The notes: generated by a model from the sequence alone, not told the origin. 64,000 nt of DNA from Thermoleophilia bacterium (GCA_025964555.1 JAOPYQ010000027.1:1-64000), one strand, 5' to 3'; numbered from the stretch's first letter, positions 19,886 through 26,984 are shown. Numbers and translations are program-made.

Positions 19886-19928
19886 TAGCGGTGGAGGGAC
19901 TCGAACCCCCGACACGCGGATTATGATT
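19886..19928 (-). repeat. Proximal attachment site inside tRNA-Met
   Basis: This 43-bp segment is the 3' part of the intact tRNA-Met gene and is identical to 9619-9661. Strand exchange must have occurred within these bases. The tRNA keeps a complete sequence because the element carries the 3' part. Confidence 0.92.
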
Positions 19929-19959
19929 CCGCTGCTCTAACCGGCTGAGCTACACCGCC
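19886..19959 (-). tRNA. tRNA-Met (CAT), integration target
   Basis: The minus strand folds into a 74-base cloverleaf. The acceptor stem starts GGCGGTG and pairs with CACCGCT, with discriminator A. The anticodon stem GCGGA/TCCGC holds the loop ATCATAA, giving anticodon CAT. The T-arm has TTCGAGT. It looks like an elongator tRNA-Met. A tRNA-Ile with modified CAT cannot be excluded by anticodon alone. No CCA is encoded. Confidence 0.93.
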
Positions 19960-20484: not shown

Positions 20485-21440
20485 TGGGTGGGACGACCCC
20501 CCACCGTGAACCGATCGTCGCCGTCGTGGCGGGCAGCGTGCTCATCGCGTGGTCGGGCATCTTGGTGCGCCTCGCCGACCTGCCGCCCGCGACCGCCGCG
20601 TTCCTTCGATGCGCGTATGCCGTGCCCCTGCTCGTCGCGCTCGCATGGTGGTGGCGACGATCCGGTCGCGCCGATGCGATGAGCACGTCGCAGCTGCGAT
20701 GGGCGATCTTCGCGGGCGTGAGCTTCGGCGCCGACCTGGTGCTGTGGCACGTCGCGATCGGCGCGGTCGGGGCGGGGCTCGCCACGGTGCTCGGCAACAC
20801 ACAGGTCTTCCTGTTTCCCTTCGCGGCATGGCTCGTGTGGCGCGAACAGCCGACCCGTCGCCAGGCCGCGGTGCTCCCGGCCCTCGTCTTCGGGATCGTG
20901 CTCATCTCCGGCGCGATCGGTGCTGACACCTATGGCGACGACCCGCTGCTCGGCGTCATCACTGGGCTGCTCACCGCCGTCGCCTACGCCGGCTTCCTGA
21001 TCGGCATGCGCGCGGGTTCACCCACGCGGGGCGGCACGCCGGTCAACACGCTCGCCGTCGCGACCTTCGTCGCGGCGATCGTCTCGGTGCTGAGCGGGCT
21101 CGTGCTCGGCGACTTCGACCCGACCCCGACCTGGCCGGCACACGGATGGATGCTGCTGCTGGCGTGGGGATGCCAGGTGCTCGCGTGGATGCTCGTCTCC
21201 GGATCGCTCGCACGCGTACGCGCGGCACGCGTGTCGATCCTGCTGCTCGTGCAGCCGCTGACCGCCCTCATACTGGGCGTCGTCGTACTCTCCGAGGATC
21301 CGAGCCTCGCGCAGTGGATCGGAGCCGGCGCGCTGCTGCTCGGCGTGGTGGTCGGAGGTGCGGGCGGCCGCGACGAGCAGCCCGCACCACCGACCGATGC
21401 CGTGTCGGTCAGCGAACCTGGAACAGCACCCAGCCGCTGA
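20481..21440 (+). CDS. EamA/DMT-superfamily transporter
   Basis: The 319-residue protein has about ten membrane helices arranged as two similar halves, as in the drug/metabolite transporter superfamily. Signature segments are A-A-F-L-R-C-A-Y-A-V-P in the first half and V-S-I-L-L-L-V-Q-P-L-T-A near the end of the second. Such proteins export amino acids, metabolites or drugs by proton exchange. The substrate cannot be inferred here. The ATG overlaps the stop of the small membrane protein (ATGA). The 3' end overlaps the convergent delta-60 gene by 32 bases. Confidence 0.88.
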   Translation: MMGGTTPHREPIVAVVAGSVLIAWSGILVRLADLPPATAAFLRCAYAVPLLVALAWWWRRSGRADAMSTSQLRWAIFAGVSFGADLVLWHVAIGAVGAGLATVLGNTQVFLFPFAAWLVWREQPTRRQAAVLPALVFGIVLISGAIGADTYGDDPLLGVITGLLTAVAYAGFLIGMRAGSPTRGGTPVNTLAVATFVAAIVSVLSGLVLGDFDPTPTWPAHGWMLLLAWGCQVLAWMLVSGSLARVRAARVSILLLVQPLTALILGVVVLSEDPSLAQWIGAGALLLGVVVGGAGGRDEQPAPPTDAVSVSEPGTAPSR

Positions 21441-23466
21441 CCTTCGGAGACGTGCCGCGGCGCACGATCGTCTCCGTGCGAATGCGCCACGTCGCCGACG
21501 TTGCCCGCCAGTCCGTCGGCAGCTTGATGTCGAGGCCGCCATTGTCGCCGATCGGCAGTCGATGTCGGAACTTCACGACCCAGCGTCCGCGCTCCTTGAC
21601 CTGCATCACCAGCAACACGGTTCGACGACCCGGAATCCCGGCGCTCGCGCGCAGGTACGCCGGTGTCAGTCGCGCGCCTGGTCGAACGCGGTTGACCACA
21701 CACATCACGCGCACGGTTCCGCAGCCGGCGATCACGCGACCGCCGTATCCCGTGATGCGCTGGAGCGTCAGGCGCAGGACCTTCGGGATCGCTGCAGCGC
21801 TCGGCTTCGCCGCGGGCGGCACGACGGGCGTGACGACCGCCGCGGCGACGGGCAGCGGATCGAACGGATGCTCCGCGCTCGTGGCGTCATCCAGCATGAT
21901 GTCGTCGAACGTCGCAGCGTCGACCGTCGCGCTGACCTTGTGCGTGCCGGCGCTCACGGCCTTGATCTTGAGGGCGACCGACTTGTTCGCGCCCGCTGCG
22001 AGGTTCGCGAATCGACAGGTGCCGCCGCGTGCATCGACCGTGCAGTCCGAACCCGTCCAGCTCGTGATGCGAAGCCCGTCGCTCACCGAGAAGGTCAGCA
22101 CGCCCCTCCCCGAGCTGTCGGGCCCGTCGTTGACGGCGCGCACGACGTAGTCGGCAGGGGTGCCGACGACGCCCTTCGCGAGCGGCGTGGCGACCTCGGG
22201 TCGAACGTGCGCGATGCGTGCGAGGTACTGCTCCACACGGGTCTGGCGAACGTCACCAGCAAACGCGTGGTACGCCGACACGAGGGAGCCGTCCGGAGCG
22301 AACGCAAGCGAGTGGTGATCGAGGTAGAAGCGCTTCGTCGACGTCCCCTGGAGGTGGCGGATGCCGCCAGGCCCCCACGCCGCATCCTGCGTGCCGTTGG
22401 AGTTGAGCCGGACGATCGCGCGATGCAGCGCAGGTGATGCATCGGTTCCGGCGACGAACATCGCGCCTTCAGGCTGGCGCAGCAGCTCATGTCCGCGGAA
22501 CGAGGCGGGGAACGGCTGGATCAGGCCGGAGTTGCCGGCGTACTGGCTGATGACGGGTGTCGCGGCAACATCCAGGAACGCGAGGCCAGCGGTCTGCGAC
22601 CCCTCGAGCAGCACGACCGCGTGCGTCGCGTCAGTGGCCATCACGTCGATCGGCTTGTTGTAGGCGTTGGGGAACGCGACGTTCGCCGCGACCCGCGTAC
22701 CGCCGGTGGAGTTGATCCGCCACACCATCGACGCGGTGCCCATGTGCGGATTACCGACGATGTAGTCGCCGTTGGACATCTGCGTGATGCCGCCGAACGA
22801 GTCGGCGTCGGCATCGTAGGGCGAGCCGAACAGCAGGTAGGGGTCGCCCGCGAAGTCGGGATCGTCGACCCCGAACGGCGACAGCCGTCCCAGGAACAGG
22901 TCGTCGGCTTTGGTGCCGTTCTTGACGATCCCGATGAACGTGATCTTGCCGGACGCCTCGACGAACACGTCCTCGATGAGCGGGTTGCTGTCCACGGGCG
23001 TGCCGATCACGAACTTTCCGTCGGCGGAGAACGTGAGGTCAGGCTCTCCGGCTGGTGTCAGTCGACCGATCACGATCGCAGGCACGGTGGTGTCGACGCC
23101 CGCGTAGACGATGCCGCCGTCAGGCTGCAGCGCGATCGCGCGGATGTAGGACGTGTTGGCGGTCGGCACATGCCAGATGCCGCCGGCCGCGAAGGACGGG
23201 TCGAGCTCGCCGCTCGGCAGCAGGCGCACGATGCGCTGGTCGACCTCGGCGTCGTTGAGGATGCTCATGACGATCTTGCCGTCAGGCTGGACGACGACGT
23301 CGGTCGCGCTCTCGTGTCCGGTCGCTGGTCCAACATGCTGGGCGAACGTCGTGAAGCCCGGATACGGATCACCGGGGGACGCGCCCAGGGATGCGGCGGG
23401 CGACGCGAGCACGATCGCGGCGACGGCACAGATTGCAGGGACAAGGCGGCGCAGGGCGGACGGCAT
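21409..23466 (-). CDS. Secreted delta-60 repeat (beta-propeller-like) protein
   Basis: The 685-residue protein starts with a signal peptide (basic start, hydrophobic core, A-S-L-G-A-S-P cleavage region near residue 28). Delta-60 repeats follow, with units such as V-V-Q-P-D-G-K-I-V, L-P-S-G-E-L-D-P-S-F, A-L-Q-P-D-G-G-I-V-Y-A-G and L-N-S-N-G-T-Q-D-A-A-W. After about residue 420 comes an Ig-like or DUF11-like module (D-G-P-D-S-S-G-R-G-V-L-T-F), then a basic C-terminal domain with Cys pairs. It is probably a cell-surface or exported protein, with no activity to be inferred. The start at 23466 gives the best signal peptide. Confidence 0.85.
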   Translation of the reverse strand: MPSALRRLVPAICAVAAIVLASPAASLGASPGDPYPGFTTFAQHVGPATGHESATDVVVQPDGKIVMSILNDAEVDQRIVRLLPSGELDPSFAAGGIWHVPTANTSYIRAIALQPDGGIVYAGVDTTVPAIVIGRLTPAGEPDLTFSADGKFVIGTPVDSNPLIEDVFVEASGKITFIGIVKNGTKADDLFLGRLSPFGVDDPDFAGDPYLLFGSPYDADADSFGGITQMSNGDYIVGNPHMGTASMVWRINSTGGTRVAANVAFPNAYNKPIDVMATDATHAVVLLEGSQTAGLAFLDVAATPVISQYAGNSGLIQPFPASFRGHELLRQPEGAMFVAGTDASPALHRAIVRLNSNGTQDAAWGPGGIRHLQGTSTKRFYLDHHSLAFAPDGSLVSAYHAFAGDVRQTRVEQYLARIAHVRPEVATPLAKGVVGTPADYVVRAVNDGPDSSGRGVLTFSVSDGLRITSWTGSDCTVDARGGTCRFANLAAGANKSVALKIKAVSAGTHKVSATVDAATFDDIMLDDATSAEHPFDPLPVAAAVVTPVVPPAAKPSAAAIPKVLRLTLQRITGYGGRVIAGCGTVRVMCVVNRVRPGARLTPAYLRASAGIPGRRTVLLVMQVKERGRWVVKFRHRLPIGDNGGLDIKLPTDWRATSATWRIRTETIVRRGTSPKVSGWVLFQVR

Positions 23467-23613
23467 CGCAACAACTCCATCGTTCGGTGGCAGCAAGGCG
23501 AACGACGGTAGCGGGCTTGCGCATGCACGATCGTGCACGCGTCGTGCACATCGATGCAGATTCAGCGCGAAGGTGTGCGAGCCGGTGTGTCACCGGCGCA
23601 GGATCTGGACCGA

Positions 23614-25050
23614 CTACGCTGCCGGGTAGATGTTCGGGTAGTCCGGGTCCGGATAGCTCGGGTCGGGATAGCCGGGATCCACGGGGAAGCCGCCGTCGTC
23701 GTCGTCGCCCGGGCTCGTGCCGCCACCCGGCGCGCCGGGAATCCACCCGGACGGGCTCAGCGTCTGCTCGGCGAGCGACACGGCAGCCTGCTGATCGACC
23801 GACCCCCACGAGCTGGTGCGGCTCAGCTGGATCGCCTCGCGGATCATCGACTTCGCTTCGGTCGAGCTTCGGCGCCCGCGCAGCGCGGCGGTCGTCAGGC
23901 GCTCGTCGCTCGTGCGGGACCAGTCATACGGCGTCTCGTTGAGCACGGCGCTGATCGTGGAGCCGACGTCCGCCGCTGGCATGCCGGAGGCGAGGGCAGT
24001 GGAGATGAGCGTCTGGTCGCTTGTCGCCGGCCAGTCGTACGGCGTGGCGTTCGTGACCTTGGAGATGAGCGTGCCGATCGTGTTGGGATCGACTGCGCCC
24101 TGCAGCGCTCCCACGATGAAGTCGATGTCAGCCGTGCGCGGCCAGTCGTACGGCGTGGCGTTGGTGACGCTCGACACGAGACGGCCGACCGAGTTGGGAT
24201 CGGTCTGGCGGGACAGGGCAGCCTCGATGATGCGCTTGTCGTCGGCGGACGTCCAGTCGTACGGCGTCGCGTTCGTCACCTTGGAGATGAGCGACCCGAT
24301 CGTCGAGGCGTCGACCTGGCCGGTCATTGCCGCCTTGATGAAGCGGATGTCGTCGGCCTTGTTCCAGTCGTACGGCGTGGCGTTCGTGACGCCCGACACG
24401 AGTCGCTGCACCTGGTCGACCGGCATGCGCGAGGAGATCGCAGTCTCGATGAGGTCGATGTCGTCTGCGCGCGTCCAGTCGTACGGCGTCGCGTTCGTCA
24501 CCGCGCTGATGAGGCGCGGCAGCGTCTGCGCGTCCTTGCCGCCGCGCAGTGCGGCCACGGCGAAGCGAACGTCGTCGGCGTGCGACCAGTCGTACGGCGT
24601 GGCGTTCTCGACGGCGTCGATCGTGCGGCTCGTCGTGCTCGAATCGAGCCGCGAGCGAAGCGCCTCGACCGCGAGCGTCGCCTGCTCGCCCGTCGTCCAG
24701 CCCGACCACGTGGATGCCGAGTTCTCGACGGAGTCCGCGATGCGCGCGGCCGCGGGTCCATCGACCCCGTATCGCACCGCGGCAGTGGCGACGCGCTGCA
24801 CGTCGGCCTCCGACCACGAGTACGCAGTCGCGTTGCGCACGGCGCTCGCGACGCGCGCGAAGGCTGCGGGATCGACATACCCGCCCGGCGGCAGTGGATC
24901 GTCTCCCGGCGACGTGCCGCCCGGGACGATCGGATCATCGCCCGGCGAGGTCGCGTGCCGATCGCGCGTGGCGTTGACCGCCCAGGCAACTGCGCCCGCC
25001 GCGCCGACCACGCCAGCGCCCACTGCGATGTTGCGAAGTGCAACGTTCAT
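23614..25050 (-). CDS. Membrane-anchored protein with tandem 37-residue N-A-T-P-Y-D-W repeats
   Basis: The 478-residue protein has one N-terminal hydrophobic helix (residues 8-25) and a linker with S-P-G-D-D-P motifs. Seven exact-length 37-residue repeats follow at residues 144-402. Each has the order [IV]-[SD]-x-V-x-N-A-T-P-Y-D-W, then A-D-D and a helical part ending in A-A-L-x-G. Degenerate copies lie at 67-143 and 403-439. A Pro/Asp/Gly/Tyr-rich tail ends the protein. The start at 25050 is the only sensible one, since the frame upstream runs through the neighbouring gene. I know no family with this repeat. It probably forms an extracytoplasmic or cytoplasmic solenoid. Confidence 0.85.
   Translation of the reverse strand: MNVALRNIAVGAGVVGAAGAVAWAVNATRDRHATSPGDDPIVPGGTSPGDDPLPPGGYVDPAAFARVASAVRNATAYSWSEADVQRVATAAVRYGVDGPAAARIADSVENSASTWSGWTTGEQATLAVEALRSRLDSSTTSRTIDAVENATPYDWSHADDVRFAVAALRGGKDAQTLPRLISAVTNATPYDWTRADDIDLIETAISSRMPVDQVQRLVSGVTNATPYDWNKADDIRFIKAAMTGQVDASTIGSLISKVTNATPYDWTSADDKRIIEAALSRQTDPNSVGRLVSSVTNATPYDWPRTADIDFIVGALQGAVDPNTIGTLISKVTNATPYDWPATSDQTLISTALASGMPAADVGSTISAVLNETPYDWSRTSDERLTTAALRGRRSSTEAKSMIREAIQLSRTSSWGSVDQQAAVSLAEQTLSPSGWIPGAPGGGTSPGDDDDGGFPVDPGYPDPSYPDPDYPNIYPAA
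23845..24621 (-). repeat. Coding tandem repeat, seven units of 111 bp
   Basis: The seven units correspond to residues 144-402 of the repeat protein. Spacing is exactly 37 codons in each, and the N-A-T-P-Y-D-W codons are the most conserved part at DNA level. Synonymous differences between units show the array is not a very recent expansion. Confidence 0.85.
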
Positions 25051-25095
25051 CGTCTGCTCCGTCCCCGTCTCGCGACCCGGTCCCGCGAGTCGTTT

Positions 25096-25128
25096 CGGGC
25101 CGCCCCGGATGTGGTCCGGGGCGGCCCG
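25096..25128. terminator. Strong hairpin between the two repeat-protein genes
   Basis: A perfect 14-bp stem with arms CGGGCCGCCCCGGA and its complement encloses a 5-base loop. It lies 30 bases beyond the stop of the upstream (25158-26099) gene on the minus strand. No T-run follows, so it could be a factor-assisted terminator or an mRNA stabiliser that separates expression of the two paralogues. Confidence 0.6.
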
Positions 25129-25157
25129 TCGATCAATGGATCGCCCGTGCTGGCTGG

Positions 25158-26099
25158 TCAGCCACCGACGGGGTAGTAGTCGTCGCCAGGCGACGTGCCG
25201 CCCGGGTATCCGCCAGCCGGGTAGCTGGGATCCGGGTAGCCCGGCGACGGGTAGCCCGGAACCGGGTAGCTGCCGCCGTAGCCGCCGCTGCGCAGCTGCG
25301 CCTCGGCGTTGGCGACCTGCGACTGCTCGCTGCCGCCGTAGTTGCTCGCGCTGCGGATGACCGATCCGACGCTGCTCGACGACACGTGGCCCTCGAGTGC
25401 CGCGACCGCGAGGCGGACGTCCGAGTTCGTCGACCAGTACGAGGGCGTCGACCACTCGACCTGGTCGATGACGTTGCCGGTCTCGTACGCGCTCGCACCG
25501 GTGAGCAGTCCCGTGGCGGCGACGCGCGCCTCCTGGTGGGACGACCACGAGTATGGCGTGGAGTTGTAGACCTCGCGCACCGTCTGTGCCGCGTCGTAGC
25601 TCGAACGACCGGCGCTCTGCGCGGCGCTCACGACCTGCGACACGTCCGAGCTGTTCCACGAGAACGGCGCGGCGTTCTCGACGGCGTTCCACATGCTGCC
25701 CGAGCCCGGGTACGTGGGCGTGGGGTAGTACGGGTCCGTCGGGTAGGTCGGATAGGTCGGATACGTGGGTTCCGACGGGTAGTACGGGTCCGTCGGGTCG
25801 TAGCCGCCCGGGTTGGACGGATACGGATCCGTCGGGTAGTAGCCGCCGGGGTTCGACGGGTAGTCGTCGCCGGGGCTCGTTCCGCCCGGGTACGAGCCGT
25901 CGCTCGGATACGTCGAGCCGCTCCCGGGATAGCTGCCCGGGTTGCTCGGTACGTAGCCGCCCGGATCGGTCGGATAGTCGTCTCCCGGCGAGGTGTCGCT
26001 CAGCACTCGCGTGAGCGCCCATGCGCCAACGCCAACGCCTGCAACGGCAAGCCCGATCTTGAGCGCGGTTCCCGCGCCTGATGCACCAACGGCAGTCAT
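25158..26099 (-). CDS. Paralogous membrane-anchored repeat protein with Pro/Tyr/Gly-rich linker
   Basis: The 313-residue protein has an N-terminal hydrophobic helix (about residues 12-32). A long low-complexity linker follows, rich in Pro, Tyr, Gly, Asp and Ser, with G-G-T-S-P-G-D-D-Y units and P-T-Y-P-T-Y-P runs. About four diverged 37-residue repeats come next, with N-A-A-P-F-S-W, N-S-T-P-Y-S-W and W-S-T-P-S-Y-W signatures. A second S-P-G-D-D tail closes it. It is clearly a paralogue of the downstream protein at 23614-25050, with fewer and more diverged repeats. The start at MTAVGASGAG (26099) puts the membrane helix at the N-terminus. Function is unknown. Confidence 0.82.
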   Translation of the reverse strand: MTAVGASGAGTALKIGLAVAGVGVGAWALTRVLSDTSPGDDYPTDPGGYVPSNPGSYPGSGSTYPSDGSYPGGTSPGDDYPSNPGGYYPTDPYPSNPGGYDPTDPYYPSEPTYPTYPTYPTDPYYPTPTYPGSGSMWNAVENAAPFSWNSSDVSQVVSAAQSAGRSSYDAAQTVREVYNSTPYSWSSHQEARVAATGLLTGASAYETGNVIDQVEWSTPSYWSTNSDVRLAVAALEGHVSSSSVGSVIRSASNYGGSEQSQVANAEAQLRSGGYGGSYPVPGYPSPGYPDPSYPAGGYPGGTSPGDDYYPVGG

Positions 26100-26273
26100 C
26101 TGTCCCCCATCCCTGTGTACTGGCCCCACGCACTGCGCGAGGTCCGTCCTCCGCCCGTACATCGGGGACCGGGCGCCCGCTTGTTCCACGACCGGCGCAT
26201 CTGGCGGCTGGATCGGGGGGAATCGGCCGTCTTCCCTCGGCGCGGTCGGCCCGCTAGGATGTCCGAACACCTT

Positions 26274-26355
26274 GGAGGTGTGCCCGAGTGGCTAAAGGGG
26301 GCGGGCTGTAAACCCGCTGGCTATGCCTACGATGGTTCGAATCCATCCGCCTCCA
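26274..26355 (+). tRNA. tRNA-Tyr (GTA)
   Basis: The 82-base sequence has acceptor stem GGAGGTG/CGCCTCC with discriminator A. The anticodon stem GCGGG/CCCGC encloses loop CTGTAAA, giving anticodon GTA. A long variable arm marks it as class II, as expected for tRNA-Tyr, and the T-loop is TTCGAAT. Confidence 0.93.
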
Positions 26356-26365
26356 TACGTGACGC

Positions 26366-26429: not shown

Positions 26430-26984
26430 ATGGCGACGCACGGCATGGGAGCGACGCGGCGACGGATGGATGCTGCGGTGGAGGACGCGAGGCGACGTCT
26501 CGCGGCGCTGCGCGTGGGCCGCGCGAGCCCGGACCTGGTCAACGACATCCGCGTGGCTGCATGGGGCAGCGAGCTGCCGATCTCCCAGGTCGCGCAGGTC
26601 GGCGCGCAGCCGCCGCGCGGGCTGGTGATCACGCCCCACGATCCGTCGCTCATCCCCGCGATCGAACGCGCGATCGGCGACAGCGACCTGGGCGCGCGCC
26701 CGCGCGTGGATGGCGTTCGCGTGCGCATCGAGCTGCCCGCGCCCACTGCAGAGCGACGATCCATGCTCGCCAAGCAGGCAGGCGACACGGCAGAGCAGGC
26801 GCGCGTCGCGGTGCGGCTCGCGCGTCGCGACGCGATCAACGAGCTGCGTCGAAGTCGCGCCGCCGAGGAGATCGGCGAGGGCAAGCTCATCGGGCGCAGC
26901 AAGGACCTGCAGGCGATGACCGACGAGCGCGTGGCGAGCATCGACCAGCTCCTCGCGACGGCGCTCACCGAGCTCGAGCAGTAG
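26430..26984 (+). CDS. Ribosome recycling factor-like protein (orphan copy)
   Basis: At 184 residues the protein has the full length of ribosome recycling factor. The family signatures are present though diverged: R-V-G-R-A-S-P near residue 29, P-I-S-Q-V-A-Q-V, P-R-G-L-V-I-T-P-H-D, A-I-x-x-S-D-L-G, the E-R-R segment of domain I, and V-R-L-A-R-R-D-A with the conserved arginines. RRF splits post-termination ribosomes with EF-G. The usual frr gene sits after pyrH and tsf, which are absent here. This copy follows tRNA-Tyr instead. It may be the only frr, moved, or a paralogue with altered function. Confidence 0.85.
   Translation: MATHGMGATRRRMDAAVEDARRRLAALRVGRASPDLVNDIRVAAWGSELPISQVAQVGAQPPRGLVITPHDPSLIPAIERAIGDSDLGARPRVDGVRVRIELPAPTAERRSMLAKQAGDTAEQARVAVRLARRDAINELRRSRAAEEIGEGKLIGRSKDLQAMTDERVASIDQLLATALTELEQ

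Follow-up and report, generated by a model that had tools for sequence, protein, structure and literature searches.

A pair of adjacent genes from an uncultured actinobacterium of the class Thermoleophilia encodes paralogous proteins, P1 and P2, in which an N-terminal hydrophobic helix is followed by tandem units of 37 residues. The unit is predicted to form two helices, and among the genomes searched this repeat appears to be confined to its own genus. The window analysed, a stretch of 64,000 nucleotides, comes from contig C8 of a genome (G000) of 2.7 Mb that is 64% complete; completeness ranges from 64 to 88% over all genus genomes. P2 lies upstream of P1, both are on the minus strand, and 107 bp separate them. 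From the N- to the C-terminus, P1 consists of the hydrophobic helix, a short spacer, nine 37-residue units, a cap and an acidic Pro/Tyr/Asp tail, and P2 of the helix, a spacer of ∼ 100 residues rich in Pro/Tyr/Gly/Asp, three 37-residue units, a cap and a short tail. The parts map as follows.

23614..25050, minus strand: P1 gene (478 aa, ATG at 25050; orthologue in the sister species, G003)
24973..25029, minus strand: P1 N-terminal hydrophobic helix, residues 8-26 (hydropathy 1.69 over 19 residues)
24934..24951, minus strand: P1 TSPGDD tag 1 (codon-level pattern)
24898..24915, minus strand: P1 TSPGDD tag 2 (codon-level pattern)
23830..24834, minus strand: P1 repeat array, units 1-9, residues 73-407 (AlphaFold2 predicts a helical solenoid for units 5-8)
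23830..24606, minus strand: the seven canonical NATPYDW units of P1, residues 149-407 (from sequence)
23731..23829, minus strand: P1 C-terminal cap, residues 408-440 (aligns with the P2 cap region)
23701..23718, minus strand: P1 TSPGDD tag 3, C-terminal (codon-level pattern)
25158..26099, minus strand: P2 gene (313 aa, ATG at 26099; orthologues in G003 and a third genus genome, G001)
26001..26057, minus strand: P2 N-terminal hydrophobic helix, residues 15-33 (hydropathy 1.69 over 19 residues)
25977..25994, minus strand: P2 TSPGDD tag 1 (codon-level pattern)
25692..25994, minus strand: P2 Pro/Tyr/Gly/Asp-rich spacer (from sequence; its length differs among species)
25863..25880, minus strand: P2 TSPGDD tag 2 (codon-level pattern)
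25344..25676, minus strand: P2 repeat array, units 1-3, residues 142-252 (from sequence and orthologues)
25275..25343, minus strand: P2 C-terminal cap, residues 253-275 (from sequence and orthologues)
25179..25196, minus strand: P2 TSPGDD tag 3, C-terminal (codon-level pattern)

The original prediction placed seven repeats of exactly 37 residues, with an NATPYDW signature, in P1. These seven are present, but they are only part of the array: two diverged units (W79 and W118) precede them and a half-unit cap follows, giving nine units plus cap. The unit tryptophans fall at positions 79, 118, 155, 192, 229, 266, 303, 340 and 377, with W415 in the cap; the W118 unit carries a two-residue insertion that is missing in the sister species. 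Self-identity of P1 at an offset of 37 is 134 residues, compared with a shuffled maximum of 56 (offsets 15-199, 300 shuffles). The value at lag 74 (118) is close to that at lag 37, which is compatible with growth of the array by two-unit duplications. For P2, about four units had been proposed; we find slightly fewer, three clear ones (W148, W185, W222) and the cap. Since the offset-37 self-identity of P2 (44) merely equals its shuffled maximum (44), the repeat call in P2 rests on its likeness to P1 and on the P2 orthologues. The long Pro/Tyr/Gly/Asp linker attributed to P2 is borne out as the spacer. The proteins end in PNIYPAA (P1) and DYYPVGG (P2).

Both genes have support as coding sequences and are under purifying selection. 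Against the sister species, dN is 0.25 and dS 0.66 for P1 (dN/dS ∼ 0.37), and dN is 0.31 and dS 0.85 for P2 (dN/dS ∼ 0.36); third-position GC of the two reading frames is 0.88-0.94. The gap between P2 and P1 contains a perfect GC-rich hairpin (25096-25128, minus strand; fold z-score -3.6 for a 113-nt stretch), which is not conserved, as P2 and P1 are only 3 bp apart in G003. Directly downstream of P1 lies a gene for a Delta-60 repeat protein (21409-23538, minus strand) that matches TIGR02608 at 109 bits as well as the Pfam DUF5122 beta-propeller and DUF11 families.

The fold was predicted with AlphaFold2 for units 5-8 of P1, using an alignment (A6) of this four-unit segment with five in-register rows from P1 and P2 of two species. 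The model has a mean pLDDT of 91.2 and a pTM of 0.85 and contains eight helices, two per 37 residues, stacked as tandem hairpins in an elongated arrangement of the alpha-solenoid class. P1 folded alone gave an agreeing helix pattern at low confidence (pLDDT 49). On the strength of this model we are confident that the P1/P2 repeat would adopt an alpha-solenoid fold with one 37-residue hairpin per unit, in line with the regular solenoid first suggested from the constant repeat length. The NATPYDW signature forms the loop between helical hairpins in the model. As its tryptophan is kept as W or F in diverged members, it is more likely to serve as a structural clamp between units than as a ligand site.

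The original prediction also held that the repeat belongs to no known family, and with one formal exception our searches agree. TPR, Sel1, HEAT, ARM, PPR, PUF, ANK and TAL were absent in Pfam searches of P1 and P2 to E 10 and of their orthologues to E 1, and no member was among the best 50 PDB fold matches listed. NCBIfam and PHROGs gave no credible match for either protein, and a PDB sequence search gave none. With Foldseek, neither the PDB nor the viral models gave the four-unit model a match at E ≤ 0.001; the top PDB match was to a designed helical repeat at 0.12, and the top viral one to a phage minor tail protein at 0.054. The exception is PKD_6, the sole Pfam family above cut-off for P1, with 33.6 bits on P1 and 30.4 bits on its orthologue against a cut-off of 25; taken at face value, it would make the repeats beta-sandwich PKD-like domains. 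The best PKD_6 stretches span just 19-24 of the 82 profile positions, however, and neither the orthologue nor the four-unit segment contains a stretch that reaches the limit by itself; the score therefore adds up repeated NATPYDW fragments. A PKD-like sandwich of ∼ 80 residues cannot fit a 37-residue unit, and the modelled segment is all-helical (pLDDT 91). We regard a PKD-like identity as extremely improbable and, given the helical prediction and the summed-fragment score, rejected it.

The pair sits in an interval of variable length between two conserved tRNA genes.

26273..26356, plus strand: tRNA-Tyr, conserved border of the locus
19886..19959, minus strand: tRNA-Met, likewise a conserved border, at the opposite end of the variable interval

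P2 is present in three of the four genus genomes and P1 in two. The order in G003 is tRNA-Tyr, P2 (381 aa) and P1 (515 aa), the latter 69-70% identical to P1 of the window. In G001, P2 follows tRNA-Tyr and the contig then ends; a second contig opens with an apparent P2 end and continues with an opposite-strand gene (not P1), tRNA-Met and an integrase gene. The fourth genome, G002, has an empty site: an RRF-like gene, tRNA-Tyr, 101 bp, tRNA-Met and the integrase gene. The distance from tRNA-Tyr to tRNA-Met is thus several kb in G000 and G003 but 101 bp in G002; in all four genomes tRNA-Met is closely followed by an integrase gene. Because the genus genomes are incomplete, the absence of the pair from G002 and of P1 from G001 rests on this local gene order. 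The RRF-like gene (26430-26984, plus strand, in the window) adjoins tRNA-Tyr in G000, G001 and G002; a second RRF copy, about 40% identical, occurs elsewhere in G001, G002 and G003, which gives the genus two RRF paralogues.

Beyond the genus we found no relatives. A P1 sequence search of 61 genomes, repeat-profile searches of 129 genomes of the order and a profile search of 399 genomes of the class (best 12 candidates per genome scored) matched genus members only, and a 397-genome sample of the phylum, scored in the same way, returned only the genome of the window itself. P1 and P2 were absent from the 125 other genomes of the order. A P1-based scan of genome contigs matched only the G003 record (JAOPYS010000470.1), and no relatives of P1/P2 were found among the viral contigs searched, of P1 among plasmids or of P3 (a further genus protein, described below) among phages. 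Absence of the pair from related genomes had been named beforehand as counting against the prediction, and such absence is seen in part: one genome of the same genus and all other genera searched lack it. Its conservation in the sister species, under selection, nevertheless marks the pair as lineage-restricted rather than spurious. The retention of the adjacent pair there also agrees with the description of P2 as a diverged paralogue next to P1. Repeat number, proposed as something that might vary among strains, is the same in both P1-bearing species. In a unit-by-unit identity matrix of the two P1 proteins the maximum lies on the diagonal for all nine units; the nine-unit array therefore appears to have been fixed before the species split, with no homogenization seen. 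To judge from these two orthologues, array length and unit order are maintained between species.

The repeat extends to other proteins of the genus. A profile built from P1 and P2 only (A1) detected P4 on contig C9 of the same genome (E 4.6e-12); it adjoins P3, and the two lie at L020:5209-6479 on the minus strand. P3 has five exact 37-residue units with the loop DGFGTGW, and P4 has four units, spaced 37, 37 and 36, with the loop GATPTSF. Used as a query, P3 recovers P1 at E 8.6e-6. The four proteins share the 37-residue spacing, a W/F at one loop position and the profile match, and we treat them as one group. Wider profiles matched G003:C149 (41-residue units, 8e-11) and G003:C73 (7e-5) (profile A2) and a protein at G001:C16 (1e-5; profile A7). 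One row of A1 and its successors contains a two-residue insertion that was treated by hand or omitted; these profiles served for searching, not for folding. Ala-rich helical composition could be part of the cause of the weaker matches, yet a search of the 125 other genomes of the order with profile A7 gave none at E 0.01. P3, P4 and the G001:C16 protein have no clear N-terminal anchor by hydropathy, with start codons chosen by hand. The repeat is therefore not tied to a membrane anchor, and the original description of a repeat family in membrane-anchored proteins applies to P1 and P2 but not to these three.

Several matches of the group were set aside. The P3 loop motif GFGTGW reads like annexin, but there is no annexin match in Pfam; calmodulin/troponin PDB matches of P3 (E 0.003-0.04) are alike in periodicity only and were taken as chance; and weak P3 matches in G128, G034, G030 and G001:C101 are unrelated frames, one of them a leucyl-tRNA synthetase. 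The PQQ enzyme at G000:C9 is only a flank of that locus, and P3 and P4 are encoded on the opposite strand. A match of P3 to phrog_1791 (5e-12) is perhaps another effect of repetition.

A second feature of P1 and P2 is the motif SPGDD. The six-frame translation of the window contains six occurrences of [ST]PGD[DE], all TSPGDD and all in P1 or P2; of the three in each protein, two lie close to the N-terminus and the third close to the C-terminus, just as SPGDD motifs at both ends had been noted. Genome-wide, the TSPGDD codon pattern occurs 13 times in G000 and 12 times in G001, and the reversed pattern 0 times. A relaxed pattern, [TN]SPGD[DE], gave 14 occurrences in G000, 12 each in G001 and G003, 2 in G002 and at most 6 in any of 395 other genomes. 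The one genus genome with few tags, G002, is thus the one without P1 and P2, and the three P2 genomes have many; over four genomes this is only an association between tag abundance and P2 presence. Judged by sequence, SPGDD is a tag that many proteins with little else in common carry throughout the genus, and it is not specific to the repeat family.

The carriers are diverse. In G000, C1:97735-98648 holds two of them, a lipobox-bearing protein with an EF-hand loop and, divergent from it, an anchored protein that contains DPRGWGND repeats; others are a large anchored protein (C20:62041-62127) and an anchored Tyr/Pro/Asp-rich protein ending in TSPGDDY (C1:209661). G001 has seven besides P2 (loci include C93, C127, C189, C190 and C227). 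Among the G003 carriers (C306 is one locus), one protein has an SLT transglycosylase domain above the Pfam cut-off; in the reading frame used, no clear signal is seen in this transglycosylase-like carrier. EF-hand-type loops occur in four carriers, a lipobox after an N-terminal hydrophobic stretch in two, and six end in [ST]DNGNPxxxDF. The TSPGDD-bearing protein at G001:C190 (L100:38-1363) has a period of 36-37 residues (AYATS/AWATS) and maybe represents another repeat family; it fails the repeat profile and was not counted in the group. P1 and P2 share with this set the motif in spacer or tail and the N-terminal hydrophobic helix. They lack the DNGNPxxxDF tail, and they have no lipobox cysteine after the hydrophobic stretch, both being free of cysteine. 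Like the DNGNP-tailed proteins, they end in acidic or low-complexity sequence with no helix, unlike LPXTG, GlyGly-CTERM or PEP-CTERM proteins. A literature text search for SPGDD returned unrelated matter only. The shared motif points to a candidate lineage-specific cell-envelope protein set that has not been described.

The expected N-terminal membrane helix is indeed seen in both proteins as a hydrophobic stretch with a 19-residue mean hydropathy of 1.69 in each (hydropathy, lipobox and EF-hand statements are from simple scans). The fold alone does not imply an outside location, because P3 and P4 show no anchor, and the few, mixed charges beside the helices mean that the positive-inside rule gives no clear orientation. 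P1 and P2 might be tethered scaffolds that face the cytoplasm and gather cytoplasmic partners, their solenoid acting as in the genus proteins with no clear anchor (P3, P4 and the G001:C16 protein). The P1 charges, which lie mostly after the helix (ATRDRH), would fit this, since the positive-inside rule then favours a cytoplasmic C-terminal side, and cysteine-free proteins are compatible with either side. However, the SPGDD tail also occurs on lipobox-bearing and transglycosylase-like proteins. Proteins of the lipobox, EF-hand and transglycosylase types normally act outside the membrane, and envelope proteins are the more usual setting for a long Pro/Tyr/Gly spacer. Because the carriers include such lipobox and transglycosylase-like proteins, the SPGDD tails are probably extracytoplasmic. 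A cytoplasm-facing arrangement is an unlikely alternative to which we nevertheless give some weight. We infer that P1 and P2 are exported and would rather expect them outside the membrane; a cell-surface location is likely.

If they are outside, P1 and P2 would quite probably act as binding scaffolds. We suggest that the N-terminal helix tethers them to the cytoplasmic membrane, that the spacer, disordered and rich in Pro/Tyr/Gly/Asp, would keep the rest of the protein off the membrane, and that spacer and tail carry the SPGDD tags common to the genus-specific envelope-type set, with a possible role in docking, modification or sorting. The solenoid (nine units and cap in P1, three and cap in P2) would be the working part, its extended surface most likely being where another envelope protein or a polymer docks. 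Taken as a whole, the picture in which P1 and P2 are paralogous scaffolds of the tagged envelope set, their solenoids tethered on the outer side of the membrane, is tentative, and we would give it somewhat less than an even chance.

The same anchor-spacer-array layout would suit surface adhesins or ligand arrays, with spacers that cross the wall and a solenoid that contacts cells, minerals or host surfaces. The acidic Tyr/Pro/Asp tails fit this, as does the accessory presence of the genes among species, which is common for surface proteins. Adhesin arrays, on the other hand, frequently vary in repeat number and homogenize their units, whereas both P1 species have the same number of repeats and the units are not homogenized; the proteins are also small (313-515 aa) and match no adhesin family. 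We consider an adhesin function unlikely.

The repeat adds to the natural helical-repeat families one that is lineage-restricted, very regular in its unit and significantly matched by no solved structure; it should be useful for studies of repeat evolution and for design. The SPGDD and DNGNP motifs suggest, in addition, that many envelope-type proteins of an uncultured actinobacterial genus are marked in an undescribed way, and this is directly testable.

Known tandem helical-hairpin families resemble P1 and P2 in building elongated structures from hairpins of 30-45 residues; P1 and P2 differ from them in having no Pfam match to these families and no PDB fold match below E 0.1. To our knowledge, none of these families has a NATPYDW loop or a spacing of exactly 37 residues. 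The best PDB fold matches, DHR8 (5cwf) and a left-handed alpha/alpha toroid (4yxx), have two helices per repeat and short loops, as in P1, but are man-made, and their E-values (0.12 and 0.30; TM-scores 0.30-0.36) are not significant. Phage tail tape-measure and minor tail proteins are the best viral fold matches (E 0.054, probability 0.93, not significant), and PhageMin_Tail is a sub-threshold match to P4. Unlike phage tail proteins, P1 and P2 lie in a chromosomal, tRNA-bordered locus with no tail genes in view and had no relatives among the viral contigs searched. The similarity of P1 to a Xanthomonas phage tail fibre (E 5e-4, 31% over 103 residues) covers a short stretch of a long J gene and was attributed to chance.

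For the motifs, it is conceivable but doubtful that SPGDD and DNGNPxxxDF form an undescribed envelope tagging system with dedicated modifying, sorting or docking machinery, in which P1 and P2 would be tethered organizers of the tagged set. The closest parallels are GlyGly-CTERM/rhombosortase and MYXO-CTERM/myxosortase, where a short motif is likewise spread across differing envelope-type proteins of one lineage (PMC3237569, PMC11980579). In contrast to those signals, SPGDD is repeated and internal, and DNGNPxxxDF stands at the very C-terminus with no helix after it. In actinobacterial O-mannosylation by PMT, Sec-translocated proteins carry their acceptor sites where Thr/Ser stand in a proline-rich context (PMC12331936); by analogy, the T-S-P of TSPGDD would fit such an acceptor context.
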